NCBI GenBank assembly: GCA_017626325.1
Contig: JAGAIZ010000035.1
Coordinates: 1-50,539, forward strand
Direction of reading: 5' to 3'
DNA from: Lachnospiraceae bacterium
GTDB lineage: Bacteria > Bacillota > Clostridia > Lachnospirales > Lachnospiraceae
Length of the DNA: 50,539 bases
Below the pieces are notes generated by a model, which saw only the letters and a list, made by a program, of their open reading frames with translations, searched no databases and had not been told where the DNA came from. Shown one piece after another: positions 40,637 to 47,691 of the stretch; the first letter of the stretch is position 1; every line of letters starts with the position of its first letter. The translations under genes and the position numbers were made by a program.

Positions 40637-42064
40637 ATGAGTACTACTTCTCAAGCGAGTCAAAGAATCAATGCTTTACTCGATGAAAACAGTTTCGTTG
40701 AAATCGGCGGTCTTGTAACTGCGAGAGCGACGGATTTCAATCTGAAACAGACAGAAACTCCTTCTGACGGTGTTGTGACCGGCTATGGAGTAATTGACGG
40801 TAATCTTGTGTATGTATACAGCCAGGATGCGTCCGTATTGAACGGATCCGTTGGCGAGATGCATGCGAAGAAGATTGCAAACCTCTATGATCTGGCAATG
40901 AAGACAGGCGCGCCTGTGATCGGTTTGATCGATTCTGCCGGACTTAGACTGCAGGAGGCGACAGACGCCTTAAACGGTTTCGGTGAGATCTATATGAAAC
41001 AGACGCTGGCAAGCGGCGTGATTCCGCAGATTACGGCTGTATTTGGCAGCTGCGGCGGCGGACTGGCTGTTATTCCCGGCATGACAGACTTCACTTTTAT
41101 GGAAGAGAAGAAGGCGAAGCTGTTCGTGAATTCCCCGAATGCACTGGAAGGCAACGAGATTTCCAAATGCGATACTTCCGCTGCGGCATTCCAGAGCGAA
41201 GAGACAGGCCTTGTTGATATGGTAGCGGATGAAGCGTCTATTCTGGCGCAGATCAGACAGTTGGTTTCCATTCTGCCCGCTAACAATGCGGATCTTGCTT
41301 TGGAAGAGTGCACGGACGATCTGAACAGAGCATGCGCTGATATCGCTAATTGCGCAGGCGATACGTCTATCGCGTTATCTCAGATAGCGGACGACGGTTT
41401 GTTTGTGGAAGTAAAGCAGAATTATGCAAAGGATATGGTTGTCGGCTTTATCAGATTGAACGGTGCGACAGTAGGTGCTGTTGCCAACCGTACGGAAGTA
41501 TATAATGCCGATGGTGAAGTGACAGATAAATTTGACGCGGTATTATCTGCAAGAGGCGCAGAGAAAGCGGCGGAGTTTATCAATTTCTGCGACGCTTTTG
41601 ATATTCCGGTATTATCTTTAACGAATGTGACGGGCTTTGCGGCAACCAAGTGCGCTGAGAAGAGAATGGCCAAGGCTGTCAGCAAGCTTACATACGCATT
41701 TGCCAACGCGACTGTTCCGAAGGTAAACGTGATCACCGGTAAAGCTTACGGCAGCGCTTATGTGGCAATGAATTCCAAAGCGATCGGCGCGGATATCACG
41801 ATCGCATGGCCTGACGCTCAGATCGGCATGATGGACGCTAAGCTTGCGGCGAAGATTATCTGCGATGGACAAGGCTCCGATGCAATCGACGCCTGCGCAA
41901 AAGAGTATGCGGCGCTTCAGAACAATGTAACAAGTGCTGCAAAGAGAGGATATGTAGACCAGATCGTAGAGCCTGTTGATACGAGAAAATACGTAATAGG
42001 CGCTTTTGAGATGTTAGCTACTAAGAGCGAAGGCCGTCCGGAGAAAAAGCACGGTACAGTCTAG
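40637..42064 (+). CDS. mmdA: Acyl-CoA carboxyltransferase subunit (MmdA/12S-like)
   Basis: 475 residues of the carboxyltransferase (crotonase-fold) family that moves the carboxyl group between an acyl-CoA such as methylmalonyl-CoA and biotin. The N-terminal half has GVIDGNLVYVYSQDASVLNG, IGLIDSAGLRLQEATDAL and FGSCGGGLAVIPGMTDF; the C-terminal half has VTGFAATKCAEKRMAKAVSK and TGKAYGSAYVAMNSKAIGAD. It is somewhat shorter than the usual 510 or so residues. GGAGGG precedes the ATG. It is the first gene of the operon. The substrate could also be malonyl-, glutaconyl- or another acyl-CoA; the sequence does not settle it. Confidence 0.83.
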   Translation: MSTTSQASQRINALLDENSFVEIGGLVTARATDFNLKQTETPSDGVVTGYGVIDGNLVYVYSQDASVLNGSVGEMHAKKIANLYDLAMKTGAPVIGLIDSAGLRLQEATDALNGFGEIYMKQTLASGVIPQITAVFGSCGGGLAVIPGMTDFTFMEEKKAKLFVNSPNALEGNEISKCDTSAAAFQSEETGLVDMVADEASILAQIRQLVSILPANNADLALEECTDDLNRACADIANCAGDTSIALSQIADDGLFVEVKQNYAKDMVVGFIRLNGATVGAVANRTEVYNADGEVTDKFDAVLSARGAEKAAEFINFCDAFDIPVLSLTNVTGFAATKCAEKRMAKAVSKLTYAFANATVPKVNVITGKAYGSAYVAMNSKAIGADITIAWPDAQIGMMDAKLAAKIICDGQGSDAIDACAKEYAALQNNVTSAAKRGYVDQIVEPVDTRKYVIGAFEMLATKSEGRPEKKHGTV

Positions 42065-42081
42065 AAAGGATGACGCTTAAC

Positions 42082-42822
42082 ATGAAAAAATTATTCGCAA
42101 TATTAGGTATGATTACCTGTATGGTCGGCTTAAGCGCATGCGGTCAGGAAGAAGAGGCAAGCGGCCCTATCACGACTGAACAGGCGGTAGAGTACGGTGC
42201 GGCTACTGTTCAGCAGATGGATACGATTGTCACACAGGGCGCGATAGAGCAGTATGTGGATCAGCCTGCTGTATATGCCGGACTGGAAAGCTGGCAGAAC
42301 GCTTTGGATGATATAGGTAAGTTTGAAGGTACAGACGGAGGTTCTGTAAAATTTGATGAGGATGAGGTTCTGATCTATGTTAATGTATTAGGCTCAGATC
42401 ATGACGCTGAGGTTGAGATTATTTTAGACAGCACTTTATCTTCTTATGTAAGTATCACTACGAACGTTTCTTATTCTACCGGCGAGCTTATGAAGAATGC
42501 GGCATTAAATACCCTGATCGGTATGGGAACTGTATTCGTTGTCCTGATCCTGATCAGTTTGATTATTTCCTGCTTCAACATTATTCCGAAGCTTCAGGAG
42601 AAACAGAAGAAGAAAGCTGAGGCGAAGAAGGCAGGAGAGGGCGCTGCACAGGAGGCTCCGGTTGTTGCACAGATTGAAGCGAGAGAAGAACTTGCAGACG
42701 ATACGGAATTAGTAGCTGTTATTGCGGCAGCGATCGCCGCTTATGAAGGCGCTGGTTCCACAGACGGATTCGTAGTAAGGTCCATAAGAAAATCTAATAA
42801 GACTAAATGGCAGAATGCCTGA
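42082..42822 (+). CDS. OadG/MmdD-type subunit with lipoprotein N-terminus
   Basis: 246 residues. Residues 1-20 form a lipoprotein signal (MVGLSAC, Cys20), then an outside domain of about 115 residues, one membrane segment (IGMGTVFVVLILISLIISCF), and an OadG-like cytoplasmic tail with DDTELVAVIAAAIAAYEG and FVVRSIRKSNKTKWQNA. The tail motif is the one by which OadG/MmdD subunits join the carboxyltransferase to the beta pump. Ordinary OadG proteins are about 80-120 residues, so the outside domain is extra. ATG 42082 is chosen over 42070, which abuts AAAGG. Confidence 0.8.
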   Translation: MKKLFAILGMITCMVGLSACGQEEEASGPITTEQAVEYGAATVQQMDTIVTQGAIEQYVDQPAVYAGLESWQNALDDIGKFEGTDGGSVKFDEDEVLIYVNVLGSDHDAEVEIILDSTLSSYVSITTNVSYSTGELMKNAALNTLIGMGTVFVVLILISLIISCFNIIPKLQEKQKKKAEAKKAGEGAAQEAPVVAQIEAREELADDTELVAVIAAAIAAYEGAGSTDGFVVRSIRKSNKTKWQNA

Positions 42823-42843
42823 GAATCATAGGAGGATATGAAG

Positions 42844-43221
42844 ATGAAAAATTATACAATTACCGTAAACGGCAGCGTATATGATGTAGTAGTGGAAGAG
42901 GGAGCAACATCCGGCGCACCTGTTGCCAAAGCGCCCGCAGCGCCTAAGGCAGTTCCGAAAGCAGCTCCTGCACCGGCAGCAGCACCCGCGGCAGGCGGCG
43001 CGGCTGGCAGCGTGAAGATCGAGGCAGGCGCAGCCGGCAAAGTATTCAAGATCGAGAAGAACGTAGGCGACGCCGTGAAGAAGGGCGACGCTGTTGTAAT
43101 CGTAGAAGCTATGAAGATGGAGATCCCTGTAGTAGCACCTGAAGATGGTACTGTAGCCAGCATTGATGTAGCGGTAGGCGATGCTGTTGAAGCAGGCGCG
43201 TTACTGGCAACATTAAACTAA
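42844..43221 (+). CDS. Biotin carboxyl carrier protein
   Basis: 125 residues. The attachment motif VEAMKMEIP puts biotin on Lys91. An Ala/Pro-rich flexible linker (about 25-52) links a short N-terminal strand region (MKNYTITVNGSVYDVVVEEG) to the biotinyl domain, as in MmdC and the 1.3S transcarboxylase subunit. It is probably the shared carrier for both carboxyltransferases of the operon. ATG 42844, eight bases after GGAGG, is preferred over 42838. Confidence 0.92.
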   Translation: MKNYTITVNGSVYDVVVEEGATSGAPVAKAPAAPKAVPKAAPAPAAAPAAGGAAGSVKIEAGAAGKVFKIEKNVGDAVKKGDAVVIVEAMKMEIPVVAPEDGTVASIDVAVGDAVEAGALLATLN

Positions 43222-43280
43222 TTCTCAGAAAAGTCTGACAAGACATATTTCTGAATTTAAATCTACAGGAGGTTAAAAAA

Positions 43281-44429
43281 ATGGATTATATAGCAACCAC
43301 GCTTGACAATCTGATCCATCAGACAGCTTTCTTCAATCTGACTGTCGGTAATTATCTGATGATTGTTGTAGCGCTTGTTTTCCTATATCTGGCTATCAGA
43401 CATGAGTTTGAACCGCTCCTTTTAGTTCCGATTGCCTTTGGTATGCTGCTTGTTAATATTTATCCTGATATTATGGCGGAATACGGAGAAGGCGGAGCCG
43501 GCGGCGGTCTGCTCTATTATTTCTACAAATTAGACGAGTGGGCGATTCTGCCGTCCCTGATCTTTATGGGTGTCGGCGCGATGACAGACTTTGGACCGTT
43601 AATTGCCAATCCGAAGAGTTTCCTGCTTGGCGCGGCAGCCCAGTTCGGTATCTTTGCCGCTTACTTCGGCGCGATTGCATTCGGCTTCAATGATAAAGCG
43701 GCGGCGGCGATTTCCATTATCGGCGGCGCTGACGGCCCTACATCCATCTTCCTTGCCGGTAAGCTTGGACAGACAGCTCTGCTTGGACCGATTGCGGTGG
43801 CGGCATATTCCTATATGTCTCTGGTACCCATTATTCAGCCGCCGATTATGAGGTTACTGACAACAGAGAAGGAGAGAAAGATTAAGATGGGCCAGCTTCG
43901 TCCTGTTACCAAGCTGGAGAAGATTCTGTTCCCGATCGTTGTTACAATCGTTGTATCTCTGATCCTCCCTACTACAGCACCCCTTGTTGGTATGCTGATG
44001 TTAGGTAACCTGTTCAGAGAGTCCGGCGTCGTAAGACAGTTGACAGATACAGCGTCTAACGCGCTTATGTATATCGTAGTTATCATCCTGGGTACTTCCG
44101 TTGGCGCTACTACCAGTGCGGAGGCATTCCTGAACACAGATACACTGAAAATCGTTGCACTCGGTCTGATCGCGTTCTGCTTCGGTACAGCGGCGGGCGT
44201 ATTGTTCGGTAAGCTGATGTGTGTACTGACCAAGGGTGCTGTGAATCCGTTAATCGGTTCCGCAGGCGTATCTGCGGTTCCTATGGCAGCCAGAGTATCT
44301 CAGAAGGTCGGCGCGGAGTCAGATCCGACCAACTTCCTGTTAATGCATGCTATGGGACCTAACGTGGCGGGCGTTATCGGTACTGCGGTTGCAGCCGGTA
44401 CTTTCATGGCGGTATTCGGCGTATTCTAA
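43281..44429 (+). CDS. oadB: Na+-translocating decarboxylase beta subunit (OadB/MmdB)
   Basis: A 382-residue polytopic membrane protein that decarboxylates carboxybiotin and pumps Na+ out. The key segment [18 protein letters not shown] includes the Na+-site Asp151, and [20 protein letters not shown] is the second conserved re-entrant region. About ten membrane segments are present. AGGAGG precedes the ATG. The identity as pump is secure; which decarboxylase it serves depends on the two transferases beside it. Confidence 0.95.
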
Positions 44430-44490
44430 GTAATTGGTTTGAAGAGAGTACATGATATAAATTGATAGAGAGAAAGGAAAGGTTATAATT

Positions 44491-45912
44491 ATGGCAGAAC
44501 AAAAACCGGTTAAGATTATGGAAACGGTTCTCCGTGATGCACATCAGTCTCTGATCGCAACAAGAATGCCTACCGAGATGATGCTTCCGATCGTGGAGAA
44601 AATGGATAAAGTCGGATACCATGCAGTAGAGTGCTGGGGCGGCGCTACTTTCGACGCTTCCCTTCGTTTCTTAAAGGAAGATCCGTGGGAAAGACTCAGA
44701 AAGTTAAGAGACGGCTTCAAAAATACAAAGCTGCAGATGCTTTTCAGAGGTCAGAATATCTTAGGTTACAGACCTTATGCTGACGACGTAGTAGACAGCT
44801 TCGTAGAGAAGTCTATTGCAAACGGTATTGATATCATCCGTATCTTTGACTGCTTGAATGATTTAAGAAATTTACAGGAAGCGGTAAACGCTACCAACAA
44901 GATTAAGAAGCAGGAAGGAAGAGGACATGCTCAGGTAGCTCTTTCTTATACATTAGGTGATGCATATACCATGGAATACTGGATGGATATGGCCAAGAAG
45001 ATTGAGGAAATGGGTGCGGATTCTATCTGTATCAAGGATATGGCGGGTCTGCTTGTTCCTTACAAGGCTTCTGAGATGATTGCGGCTATGAAGTCCGCTA
45101 CCAAGCTTCCGATTCAGTTACATACGCACTATACATCCGGTGTAGCAAGTATGACATACCTGAAGGCAGTTGAGGCTGGCGTGGATGTGATCGACTGCGC
45201 AATTTCTCCGTTTGCTATGGGTACTTCACAGCCTGCTACGGAGGTTATGGTAGAGACCTTCAAGGGTACGCCTTATGATACAGGCTATGATCAGAACCTC
45301 TTAGCTGAAATCGCTGATTATTTCAGACCTTACAGAGACGAGTGTCTCGCAAGCGGTCTTTTAAATCCGAAGGTAATGGGCGTTGATATCAAGACTCTGT
45401 TATATCAGGTACCTGGCGGTATGCTTTCCAATATGGTAAGCCAGTTGAAAGAGCAGAACGCGGAAGATAAGTACTATGATGTATTGAAGGAGATTCCTGA
45501 GGTTCGTAAGGACTTAGGAGAGCCGCCGCTTGTAACACCTTCTTCCCAGATCGTTGGTACACAGGCTGTATTTAACGTATTGATGGGCGAGAGATACAAG
45601 ATGGCCACCAAGGAGACCAAAGCGGTTCTTCGCGGCGAGTACGGTCAGACTGTTAAGCCTATGAATCAGGAGGTTATCGATAAGGTTATTCCTGGTGAGA
45701 AGAGAATTACATGCCGTCCGGCTGATCTGTTAGAGAACGAGATGGATAAGTTAGAGGCGGAGATGAAAGAGTGGAAACAGCAGGATGAGGATGTATTGTC
45801 CTACGCACTGTTCCCGCAGGTTGCTACTGACTTCTTCAAATATCGTCAGGCACAGCAGGAGAAGGTTGATATGACACAGGCTGATACGAAGAATGGAGCG
45901 TATCCGGTCTAA
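44491..45912 (+). CDS. oadA: Pyruvate/oxaloacetate carboxyltransferase (OadA/5S-like), without biotin domain
   Basis: 473 residues. The HMGL-type barrel binds a metal and swaps CO2 between biotin and pyruvate/oxaloacetate. Visible residues: VLRDAHQSLIATRM (metal Asp16), CIKDMAG (carbamylated Lys182), and LHTHYTSG (His211, His213). A conserved carboxylase domain follows (about 300-455). The usual C-terminal biotinyl domain of OadA (total about 590) is missing, so it must use the carrier at 42844. It is the last gene of the operon, ahead of the terminator at 45950. Confidence 0.92.
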   Translation: MAEQKPVKIMETVLRDAHQSLIATRMPTEMMLPIVEKMDKVGYHAVECWGGATFDASLRFLKEDPWERLRKLRDGFKNTKLQMLFRGQNILGYRPYADDVVDSFVEKSIANGIDIIRIFDCLNDLRNLQEAVNATNKIKKQEGRGHAQVALSYTLGDAYTMEYWMDMAKKIEEMGADSICIKDMAGLLVPYKASEMIAAMKSATKLPIQLHTHYTSGVASMTYLKAVEAGVDVIDCAISPFAMGTSQPATEVMVETFKGTPYDTGYDQNLLAEIADYFRPYRDECLASGLLNPKVMGVDIKTLLYQVPGGMLSNMVSQLKEQNAEDKYYDVLKEIPEVRKDLGEPPLVTPSSQIVGTQAVFNVLMGERYKMATKETKAVLRGEYGQTVKPMNQEVIDKVIPGEKRITCRPADLLENEMDKLEAEMKEWKQQDEDVLSYALFPQVATDFFKYRQAQQEKVDMTQADTKNGAYPV

Positions 45913-45949: not shown

Positions 45950-45990
45950 CGGCTGCCTTTGCGACTATGATGTTGCGGGGCAGCCGTTTT
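45950..45990 (+). terminator. Terminator of decarboxylase operon
   Basis: CGGCTGCC (45950-45957) pairs with GGCAGCCG (45979-45986), followed by TTTT. Confidence 0.8.
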
Positions 45991-46158: not shown

Positions 46159-46710
46159 ATGGCAAGAAAAGAGACGATTACGAAGAACGACATATTGAAC
46201 GCGGCGTTTGAGATGGCCAGACAGGAGGGGATTTCGCAGGTGAGCGCAAGGACGCTTGCGGCGAAGGCAGGCTGTTCCACACAGCCGATTTTCCGTGTGT
46301 ATAAGAACATGGAAGAACTGGGGGATGAATTATTTAATAAGGCGATAGAATTTTTCGGTACATTTTATGAGGAATTTCCGAAGAAAAACGATACGCCTTT
46401 TGTGAATATGGGACTTGCCTATATTCATTTTGCACAGGAAGAAAGTCAGTTATTCAGACTGTTGTTTCTCTCTGAAAACCGTCACGGCAAGAGCCTGTAT
46501 GATATGTTAAACGGCAGGAACGGCGCTGTAGTCAGAGAGATAAACAATGCGAAATTCTATGGATGCAAGAGCCCTGGCGAAATGTTTATGAAGATGTGGA
46601 TTTTCATTCACGGGGCCGCGTGTATGTCGCTTACCGGTGATTATGACTTACAGGAAGAGGATACCATTAAGTTACTGGAAGAATGTTACAGTGCGTTTCA
46701 GAATATATAG
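46159..46710 (+). CDS. TetR-family transcriptional regulator
   Basis: 183 residues. N-terminal helix-turn-helix: KNDILNAAFEMARQEGISQV, then SARTLAAKAGCSTQPIFRVYKNMEEL. The C-terminal domain is helical with no known ligand. Overlapping palindromes in its own promoter point to autoregulation. It stands just after the decarboxylase operon and is transcribed with the RpiR gene 36 bases downstream; the regulated genes are not known. Confidence 0.85.
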   Translation: MARKETITKNDILNAAFEMARQEGISQVSARTLAAKAGCSTQPIFRVYKNMEELGDELFNKAIEFFGTFYEEFPKKNDTPFVNMGLAYIHFAQEESQLFRLLFLSENRHGKSLYDMLNGRNGAVVREINNAKFYGCKSPGEMFMKMWIFIHGAACMSLTGDYDLQEEDTIKLLEECYSAFQNI

Positions 46711-46746
46711 AAGCGGTATTTGAGAAAGGGTTGTTTGTAACATAGA

Positions 46747-47691
46747 ATGGCTATACAGAATCGTTATGATATTTTGACAAGAATCAATGAACATTACGGC
46801 AGGATGAGCAAAGGGCAGAAGGCGATTTCGGCGTTTATTTATGATCACTATGATCAGGCGGTATTTATGACTGCAGCTAAGCTGGGAGAGACGGTGGGCG
46901 TCAGCGAGTCTACCGTGGTGCGTTATGCGACATATATCGGATACAGCGGTTATCCGGAATTCCAGCGGGATCTGGAGGACTGGGTGCAGAACAAGATTAA
47001 TTCGGTGCAGAAGATCGGCGCTAAGTACGGTAAAAGCACGCAATCCGAGATCCTTTCCTCCGTGCTGCAGTCTGATATAGAGAAGCTCCAGGATACGATA
47101 CATAATCTGGATCCGGTAGCGTTTGAGACGGCGGTGGATATTATTCTGGAGGCGAAGACCGTATATGTGATGGGAGTCAGAAGCTGCGAACCATTGGCAG
47201 ATTTTCTGCATTTCTATCTGAACATGATACGCGGCAATGTGGTGCTTCTTAAGACGACCAGTGTTTCTGAGACATTTGAGCAGATGATACGTATCGACGA
47301 GAAGGACGCGATGGTCGGCATCAGTTTTCCGCGCTATTCCATGCGTACGCTTAAGGCGATGGAATTTGCAAATGACAGAAATGCGAAGGTTATTACGATT
47401 ACGGATTCCGTACATTCTCCCATGAATCTTTATTCCTCCTGTAATCTGCTCGCGAGAAGCGATATGGTTTCCATCGTGGATTCTCTGGTGGCGCCGCTCA
47501 GCGTGATTAACGCGCTGGTAGTGGCAATGTGTCTGAAACGCCCGGAGGAAGTTAAGAAGAACCTGAACAATCTGGAAGAAGCGTGGAATAATTATCAGGT
47601 GTATCTGAATGATGAAATTAATTTTATTGACGAAGAACCGATGTTAAATTATCCGCTGCGTAAGAAAGAAGAGCCGGAGGATATTTCATAA
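46747..47691 (+). CDS. MurR/RpiR-family transcriptional regulator with SIS domain
   Basis: 314 residues. N-terminal RpiR-type helix-turn-helix (MSKGQKAISAFIYDHYDQAV, then VGVSESTVVRYATYIGYSGY), and a C-terminal SIS domain (VYVMGVRSCEPLADFLHFYL, VGISFPRYSMRTLKAMEFA) that senses a phosphosugar. No sugar genes lie beside it. Its stop shares one base with the ATG of the flavoprotein gene (TAATG), so translation is coupled. Confidence 0.88.
   Translation: MAIQNRYDILTRINEHYGRMSKGQKAISAFIYDHYDQAVFMTAAKLGETVGVSESTVVRYATYIGYSGYPEFQRDLEDWVQNKINSVQKIGAKYGKSTQSEILSSVLQSDIEKLQDTIHNLDPVAFETAVDIILEAKTVYVMGVRSCEPLADFLHFYLNMIRGNVVLLKTTSVSETFEQMIRIDEKDAMVGISFPRYSMRTLKAMEFANDRNAKVITITDSVHSPMNLYSSCNLLARSDMVSIVDSLVAPLSVINALVVAMCLKRPEEVKKNLNNLEEAWNNYQVYLNDEINFIDEEPMLNYPLRKKEEPEDIS

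Follow-up and report, generated by a model that had tools for sequence, protein, structure and literature searches.

A carboxyltransferase and sodium pump operon

Acetyl-CoA carboxylase (ACC) is regarded as a target for drugs and as the near-universal, ATP-dependent gateway to fatty acids. In the Na+-pumping decarboxylases, as summarised in a review, an alpha subunit moves the carboxyl group of the substrate to biotin, and a beta subunit decarboxylates the carboxybiotin and exports Na+ (PMC8473912). We analysed a stretch of 50,539 nucleotides from a Lachnospiraceae bacterium (contig JAGAIZ010000035.1 of assembly GCA_017626325.1; hereafter the window), in which open reading frames and profile searches place five close-set genes on the + strand at 40637..45912, separated by gaps of 5, 15, 59 and 61 bp. 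In order, these encode a 12S-like carboxyltransferase, an OadG-like subunit, a free biotin carrier, an OadB-type beta subunit and a 5S/OadA-type carboxyltransferase, together called the set; all five gene types that a sequence-only reading had assigned to one operon were found. Judging from gene content, the set is a likely carboxyl donor for malonyl-CoA in those relatives that lack a biotin carboxylase (BC), called BC-less where a genome has no match to the Biotin_carb_C domain (PF02785) and BC+ where it has one.

With the Na+-translocating oxaloacetate decarboxylase (OadABG) the set shares a pyruvate-type carboxyltransferase, an OadB pump, an OadG-like anchor and a biotin carrier, but its carrier is separate, its operon includes an acyl-CoA-type carboxyltransferase and its OadG has an extracytoplasmic domain. 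The Na+-dependent methylmalonyl-CoA and glutaconyl-CoA decarboxylases (MmdABCD and GcdABCD) likewise have a PccB-fold subunit, a free carrier, a beta subunit and a small anchor, whereas the 12S-like protein, carrier and anchor of the set miss the NCBIfam cut-offs for Mmd proteins, a 5S subunit is added and the sequence stretch QE..G[IV]I[RK] is lost. The three protein types of the propionibacterial transcarboxylase (12S, 5S and 1.3S) are encoded together here too, and a carboxyl shuttle without BC would be a further likeness; the set differs in having an ion pump, a divergent 12S and a 5S that reaches 545 rather than 827 bits with model NF008984. Like heteromeric ACC (AccABCD), many BC-less relatives keep AccDA in their operon for type II fatty acid synthesis (FASII), but no AccC was found in them and no AccB in the operons inspected, and carboxybiotin must come from elsewhere.

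The first gene (40637..42064, +, 475 aa) encodes a 12S/PccB-like acyl-CoA carboxyltransferase of a divergent subfamily (PF01039, E 3.7e-109), whose AlphaFold2 model (pLDDT 87.8) is closest in fold to PccB (TMq 0.90-0.91) and transcarboxylase 12S (0.89-0.90). With the curated MmdA model TIGR01117 it scores 418.1 bits against a cut-off of 998.8, and the QE..G[IV]I[RK] stretch, present in three aligned solved relatives, is missing from 88 of 88 set 12S proteins, that of the window having NVTGFAATKCAEKRMAKA in its place. Because of this score and the lost stretch, the label of a propionibacterial 12S is not justified: from the earlier 12S/MmdA-type assignment the carboxyltransferase fold stands, while the propionibacterial identity falls away. 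Where PccB has its D422 site, the alignment shows Val, which presumably says only that this residue is not the PCC-type Asp. With that position uninformative, and the lost stretch making any call unsafe, we rejected a substrate assignment; the predicted fold is right for a carboxyltransferase, and the substrate is not readable from the protein sequence. The 12S-like protein is the least conserved large subunit (median identity to the window of 63%, vs 83% for beta and 80% for 5S), and dN/dS values of 0.05-0.09 in three pairs indicate purifying selection. In a plasmid collection its best relatives were just 40-42% identical and uninformative on the set.

The OadG/MmdD-like membrane subunit (42070..42822, +, 250 aa) carries OAD_gamma (PF04277) in residues 143-226 at 88.7 bits (cut-off 27) and passes TIGR01195, again as a gamma subunit (40.6 bits, cut-off 36.05); with the MmdD model NF047902 it reaches 29.2 bits (cut-off 150). 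Its layout comprises a lipoprotein-like signal, assigned by eye, a well-predicted extracytoplasmic DUF3887-like domain, a long helix taken as the membrane span and a cytoplasmic tail, and its structural model (pLDDT 81) best matches the fold of 4hyz, a DUF3887 protein (E 0.026, probability 1.00, TMt 0.64). Short versions of 138-141 aa occur in some relatives (e.g., G007, G025 and G075). The free carrier, 1.3S/MmdC-like (42838..43221, +, 127 aa), consists of a Pro/Ala linker and a biotinyl domain (Biotin_lipoyl, PF00364) with the motif EAMKM. It scores 80.7 bits with the MmdC model NF047903 (cut-off 200), and the strict pattern AMK[ML] is found in 34 of 39 carriers, the remaining five reading EVMKM or EIMKM.

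The OadB-type Na+-pumping carboxybiotin decarboxylase (43281..44429, +, 382 aa; OAD_beta, PF03977, E 3.5e-154) exceeds the OadB cut-off of TIGR01109 (485.8 bits, cut-off 190.6). The last gene (44491..45912, +, 473 aa) encodes a 5S/OadA-type pyruvate carboxyltransferase with HMGL-like and PYC_OADA domains, which passes the model for oxaloacetate decarboxylase alpha, NF008985 (747.1 bits, cut-off 718), and falls below both TIGR01108, a model that includes the biotin domain (666.1 bits, cut-off 756.5), and the transcarboxylase 5S equivalog NF008984 (545.2 bits, cut-off 827). It ends before the biotin domain and is no fused alpha-biotin protein, the carrier being the separate 127-aa gene. Motifs which we take to be those of the metal site of oxaloacetate decarboxylase alpha and of the OadB pump are kept among set members, with LRDxHQS in 84/84, KDM[AS] in 83/84 and [HQ]xHxT[AST]G in 83/84 of the 5S proteins, and GGADGP[TI] in 86/86 and NP..G.AG.SA.P in 84/86 of the beta subunits.

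To place the set among relatives, we used 120 genomes of the same family, drawn evenly and including the window's own, of which 101 are high-quality. A set-type 12S (at least 49% identity over at least 300 aligned residues) is present in 99 of the 120, and five more, kept apart as partial matches, have a piece of one at a contig end. The arrangement is no product of chance. We chose 40 loci of the family, most of them in BC-less genomes, and 32 have the whole series 12S-G-carrier-beta-5S. Contig ends truncate four more, a beta gene is missing at two, and the last two are G097, without a set, and G109, whose group is a different, Mmd-like one. Among the 80 best-matching (named) loci, 12 had too little room after the 12S start, and all 68 with at least 5.6 kb there show the full order. 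The set is conserved as a trait of the family, and the survey of gene order that the sequence-only reading had proposed finds its operon to be a conserved, novel variation on the Na+-decarboxylase theme. Two genomes, G033 (L072) and G117 (L087), have 12S-G-carrier-5S with no beta gene within a 14-kb stretch, possibly a natural pure transcarboxylase.

Biotin carboxylase, carriers and fatty acid synthesis genes in relatives

No Biotin_carb_C match was found in the whole assembly of the window's own genome (G000, 92% complete), nor in that of G060, a member of the same genus that is 100% complete. The earlier remark that no BC gene lies nearby holds, and on profile and AccC searches it extends to the entire G000 assembly; the accompanying expectation that carboxyl groups are unlikely to arrive via an ATP-dependent BC agrees with the absence of a match in both genomes. 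Across the family sample the domain is matched in 80 of the 120 genomes and has no match in 40 (own included), and in the high-quality subset it is present in 71 and absent from 30 of 101, several of these being 99-100% complete. Queried with a full AccC, 39 of the 40 BC-less genomes gave ATP-grasp-type matches of 20-44% identity, with a best E of 5e-13, and the best of these lie mostly in frames of about 1,070 aa, which we labelled CarB from frame length; for comparison, PF02785 alone gives E values of 1e-23 to 2e-44 in BC+ genomes. Domain and full AccC searches of the BC-less family genomes thus gave no BC, whether of the ACC type or of the pyruvate-carboxylase type. Fifty named genomes, behind 50 of the 80 12S loci and of unstated completeness, divide into 21 with and 29 without BC, the latter including 21 with FabF and 13 with AccA over their cut-offs.

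Carriers were searched for in 32 genomes (24 BC-less, 8 BC+), using the biotinyl domain of the set as query. A match was found in 21 of the 24 BC-less genomes, the other three being 60-67% complete, and in 19 of these 21, G000 among them, the carrier of the set is the only one found. The two exceptions are G072, which has a second carrier, and G097, in which no set is recognisable and the carrier lies on another contig. A 612-aa carboxyltransferase frame is roughly 4 kb away from the second carrier of G072 (G072:C2:289797-289985), which perhaps belongs to a glutaconyl-CoA decarboxylase set. All six BC+ genomes with the set have two carriers, that of the set and an AccB-type one; the two BC+ genomes without it, G038 and G103, have AccB-type matches, G103 with a further match in a 1,176-aa frame. 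In line with the carrier search, the operons inspected in BC-less genomes show no accB. With no BC found in G000 and many relatives, and in most cases no further carrier, carboxybiotin has no recognisable origin in them other than the set.

Of the 120 family genomes, 96 have FabF over its cut-off; the 40 BC-less ones contribute 23 of these, and 16 of the 23 are high-quality. AccA (at least 219 bits) is present in 91 of the 120, 15 of the 40 and 14 of the 23. In the BC+ genome G012 the genes run fabH-fabD-fabG-fabF-accB-fabZ-accC-accDA. FASII operons were inspected in 8 of the 14 BC-less genomes that have both FabF and AccA: accDA (or accD and accA) is kept, with neither accB nor accC there, in G052, G056, G070, G072, G073, G076 and G079, and G106 has accD and accA before fabK on a contig that ends about 1 kb past fabF. 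G040 shows no acc genes around one FabF (L041); its AccA match, on a different contig, neighbours a second FabF-like gene. The pattern is also seen in four BC-less genomes that are not labelled as metagenome-assembled in the record title, ASF492 (Eubacterium plexicaudatum), Bacterium 1xD8-48, Bacterium C-53 and Lachnospiraceae bacterium COE1, each with a FASII operon that includes accDA, lacks accB and accC, and is accompanied by an intact set. Ten genomes contain AccA without a set 12S, of which nine are BC+ and the remaining one is 67% complete; since the set is so common, this is a weak association between AccA without BC and the set within the family.

The genus of the window is arranged differently. 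The FASII operon of G000 has acpP, fabK, fabD, fabG, fabF and fabH, and that of G060, on a contig that starts inside fabD, has fabG, fabF, fabZ and fabH, with no acc gene seen in either. G060 has a stand-alone PccB/MmdA-type carboxyltransferase (L040:6618-8234) that scores 751 bits with TIGR01117 and keeps the QE..G[IV]I[RK] stretch; its gene is found at 79-95% identity in five named near relatives (L204-L208), and similar matches occur in G031, G045, G064 and G080. It lies near a gene labelled by eye as NusG-like, and neither a carrier nor a carboxylase was recognised among its neighbours.

We extended the comparison to a sample of the class, with 293 genomes for which 95% completeness was asked. 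BC is present in 119 and its domain has no match in 174, most of which have no AccA at 270 bits or more either. AccA at or above that score occurs in 107 genomes, 11 of them BC-less (two within the family, nine outside), and in all 11 accD and accA stand with fab genes and without accB or accC, one of the stretches being only 4.6 kb long. Because the stretches of all 11 lack both genes, the joint loss of accB and accC extends more widely across the Clostridia. Between the BC-less pair of ASF492 and G076, AccDA appears to be constrained roughly as FabF is (dN/dS 0.043 vs 0.044, with dS near saturation); two other comparisons gave infinite dS, and AccDA of COE1/C-53 (0.12) and FabF of COE1/1xD8-48 (0.066) likewise yield rough ratios.

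A proposed carboxyl supply for malonyl-CoA and its alternatives

On balance, we hold it somewhat probable that the set forms a membrane-anchored biotin machine of the Na+-decarboxylase type, with a single free carrier, that also supplies the carboxyl group for malonyl-CoA in BC-less relatives. In such a machine, the 5S protein would move the carboxyl group of oxaloacetate onto the free carrier, the OadB-type subunit, held by the OadG-like subunit, would decarboxylate carboxybiotin and export Na+, and the 12S-like protein would act as a second carboxyltransferase; alternatively, the Na+ gradient could drive OadB in reverse and so charge the carrier. The charged carrier would then serve an acetyl-CoA carboxyltransferase that makes malonyl-CoA, the acceptor being AccDA from the FASII operon in relatives and, in the genus of the window, perhaps a stand-alone PccB-type protein or the 12S of the set. 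We infer the direction of flow, the contact between carrier and AccDA and the Na+ coupling from comparisons of genes and proteins. Decarboxylation of malonyl-CoA has an energy of similar size to that of oxaloacetate, and since the two are similar the net reaction, oxaloacetate + acetyl-CoA to pyruvate + malonyl-CoA, should lie near balance; the propionibacterial 12S accepts acetyl-CoA. A review puts the decarboxylation of oxaloacetate at -34 kJ/mol (PMC8100219).

The sequence-only reading had pictured a dual enzyme, both transcarboxylase and pump. Its core, one free carrier among two carboxyltransferases and a pump, survives, and its 12S half is weakened by the divergence of that protein and the lost motif. 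It overlooked that the set is family-wide, that the carrier of the set is the sole one found in most BC-less relatives, and that many of these keep an acetyl-CoA carboxyltransferase.

Several observations weigh against a malonyl-CoA supply by the set. It is not enriched where BC has been lost, a set 12S being present in 25 of 30 high-quality BC-less genomes vs 62 of 71 high-quality BC+ genomes, and of 17 BC-less genomes without FabF over the cut-off, 12 have a set 12S, one has a piece and four have none. G097, which is high-quality, BC-less and has FabF, has neither AccA nor a recognisable set, and the nine BC-less genomes outside the family that contain AccA show the same operon without accB and accC. 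In the genus of the window the acceptor is hard to name: AccA (TIGR00513) has no match in the 92% complete G000 assembly and only a match of 1.9e-6 in G060, and a second PccB-type carboxyltransferase was not found in G000 though G060 has one. Further, the AccB-type matches are weak (E 1e-6 to 6e-4) and near the threshold, and a diverged carrier could be missed. A role dedicated to fatty acid synthesis was accordingly rejected, given that genomes without FabF over the cut-off also have the set and that enrichment with BC loss is absent; because the set is neither confined to FASII users nor enriched in BC-less genomes, supplying fatty acid synthesis cannot be the only thing it does or the role it began with. 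Since it occurs where FabF is lacking and also beside a full ACC, we take pumping or another transfer to be its older job.

An alternative that we regard as unlikely is that the set is an ordinary Na+-pumping oxaloacetate decarboxylase with a separate carrier, its 12S structural or drifting, and that BC-less relatives take up fatty acids from the gut, with AccDA left over. The 5S and beta proteins pass the cut-offs for oxaloacetate decarboxylase alpha and for the pump, the 12S is the least conserved large subunit (63% vs 83% and 80%) and has lost a motif, and the set is also kept where FabF is not found over its cut-off. A leftover AccDA fits poorly, however, with Fab genes that stay, with AccDA conserved like FabF in the BC-less pair, and with the loss of accB and accC where accD and accA are kept, in the family as well as in nine genomes outside it; a drifting 12S would also not be expected to show the purifying selection seen (dN/dS 0.05-0.09).

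Resemblance of the 12S, carrier, beta and G proteins to MmdA, C, B and D, and the presence of the transcarboxylase parts 12S, 5S and 1.3S, without a beta gene between them in G033 and G117, could instead point to the propionate pathway, with the set acting as a methylmalonyl-CoA decarboxylase or as a methylmalonyl-CoA:pyruvate transcarboxylase for which the pump is an extra outlet. Given the low scores with the MmdA, MmdC and MmdD models (418/998.8, 80.7/200 and 29.2/150 bits) and a 12S without the QE..G[IV]I[RK] stretch, we consider this distinctly improbable. Slightly less probable again is a BC that exists and was missed, as a diverged or recruited ATP-grasp protein or through assembly gaps. 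The AccC query does find ATP-grasp-type proteins in 39 of 40 BC-less genomes, and the window's genome is 92% complete; those matches, however, are 20-44% identical with a best E of 5e-13, the best of them lying mostly in the frames of about 1,070 aa expected for CarB; BC is absent from 30 of the 101 high-quality genomes, several of which are 99-100% complete; and the operons inspected lack accB as well as accC.

The broader claim, that many Clostridia run FASII on an ACC without BC and without a carrier of its own, borrowing the carrier of a pump operon, charged by transcarboxylation from oxaloacetate or by CO2 fixed on biotin through a reversed, Na+-driven OadB, and so making malonyl-CoA depend on the sodium motive force in place of ATP and bicarbonate, we would put at close to an even call, leaning to doubt. 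If it is true, metabolic models that assume an ordinary ACC would be wrong for such gut Clostridia, BC inhibitors would leave them unaffected, and lipid synthesis would have an ion pump as its direct partner. Within the open-licence PMC literature, as far as its accessible passages go, we found no account of an ACC without BC fed by the carrier of a decarboxylase, subscription papers being outside that scope, and the passages of PMC8269263 considered hold nothing on a BC-free ACC. For 62 butyrivibrio draft genomes, ACC subunits were predicted in 36 to 61 and oxaloacetate decarboxylase in all 62, with no link drawn in the passages at hand (PMC4478896); a replacement of BC by the carrier of the set would offer a possible reason for this oddity of variable ACC subunits beside a universal oxaloacetate decarboxylase. 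Ruminococcus gnavus, in the part of the source available, is an ordinary case, accB and accC being listed with fab genes (PMC11581127).

A partial parallel is provided by the Thermotogales, for which Table 1 of PMC3199775 gives no ACC biotin carboxylase but an XCC-beta type carboxyltransferase. In our own control searches Thermotoga maritima has no PF02785 match (13 of 14 controls match), yet has a FabF match, and BC-less FASII may not be only clostridial. Unlike in the Clostridia described here, the table lists no ACC CT-alpha or CT-beta, and the passages of that paper at hand give no mechanism.

Evolution of the set and flanking sequence

A tree was calculated by a quick search from the joined 5S and beta proteins of 81 set-bearing genomes (55 BC-less, 26 BC+), after removal of one near-identical row of 82. 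BC status changes 12 times on this tree, with 10 changes forced by starred branches, compared to an average of 22 for shuffled labels. Here the set's own proteins stand for the species, and false losses can arise from incomplete metagenome-assembled genomes.

Downstream of the 5S gene, a terminator-like hairpin with a T-rich tail lies at 45972..45984 on the + strand, as a consensus match only; such sites number 6 in the region vs 4.1 (sd 1.8) in shuffles, which is weak evidence. A promoter-like site at 44462-44489 (11/12 matches) stands directly before the 5S gene, and the 5S protein might also be made separately; as a promoter of its own the site was rejected, sites of this kind (11 vs 8.7, sd 2.6, in shuffled sequence) being not clearly above expectation. 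Beyond the set, TetR-type and RpiR/SIS-type regulators are encoded at 46159-47691, and they are retained at this position in several relatives, e.g., G045, G079, G041 and COE1.

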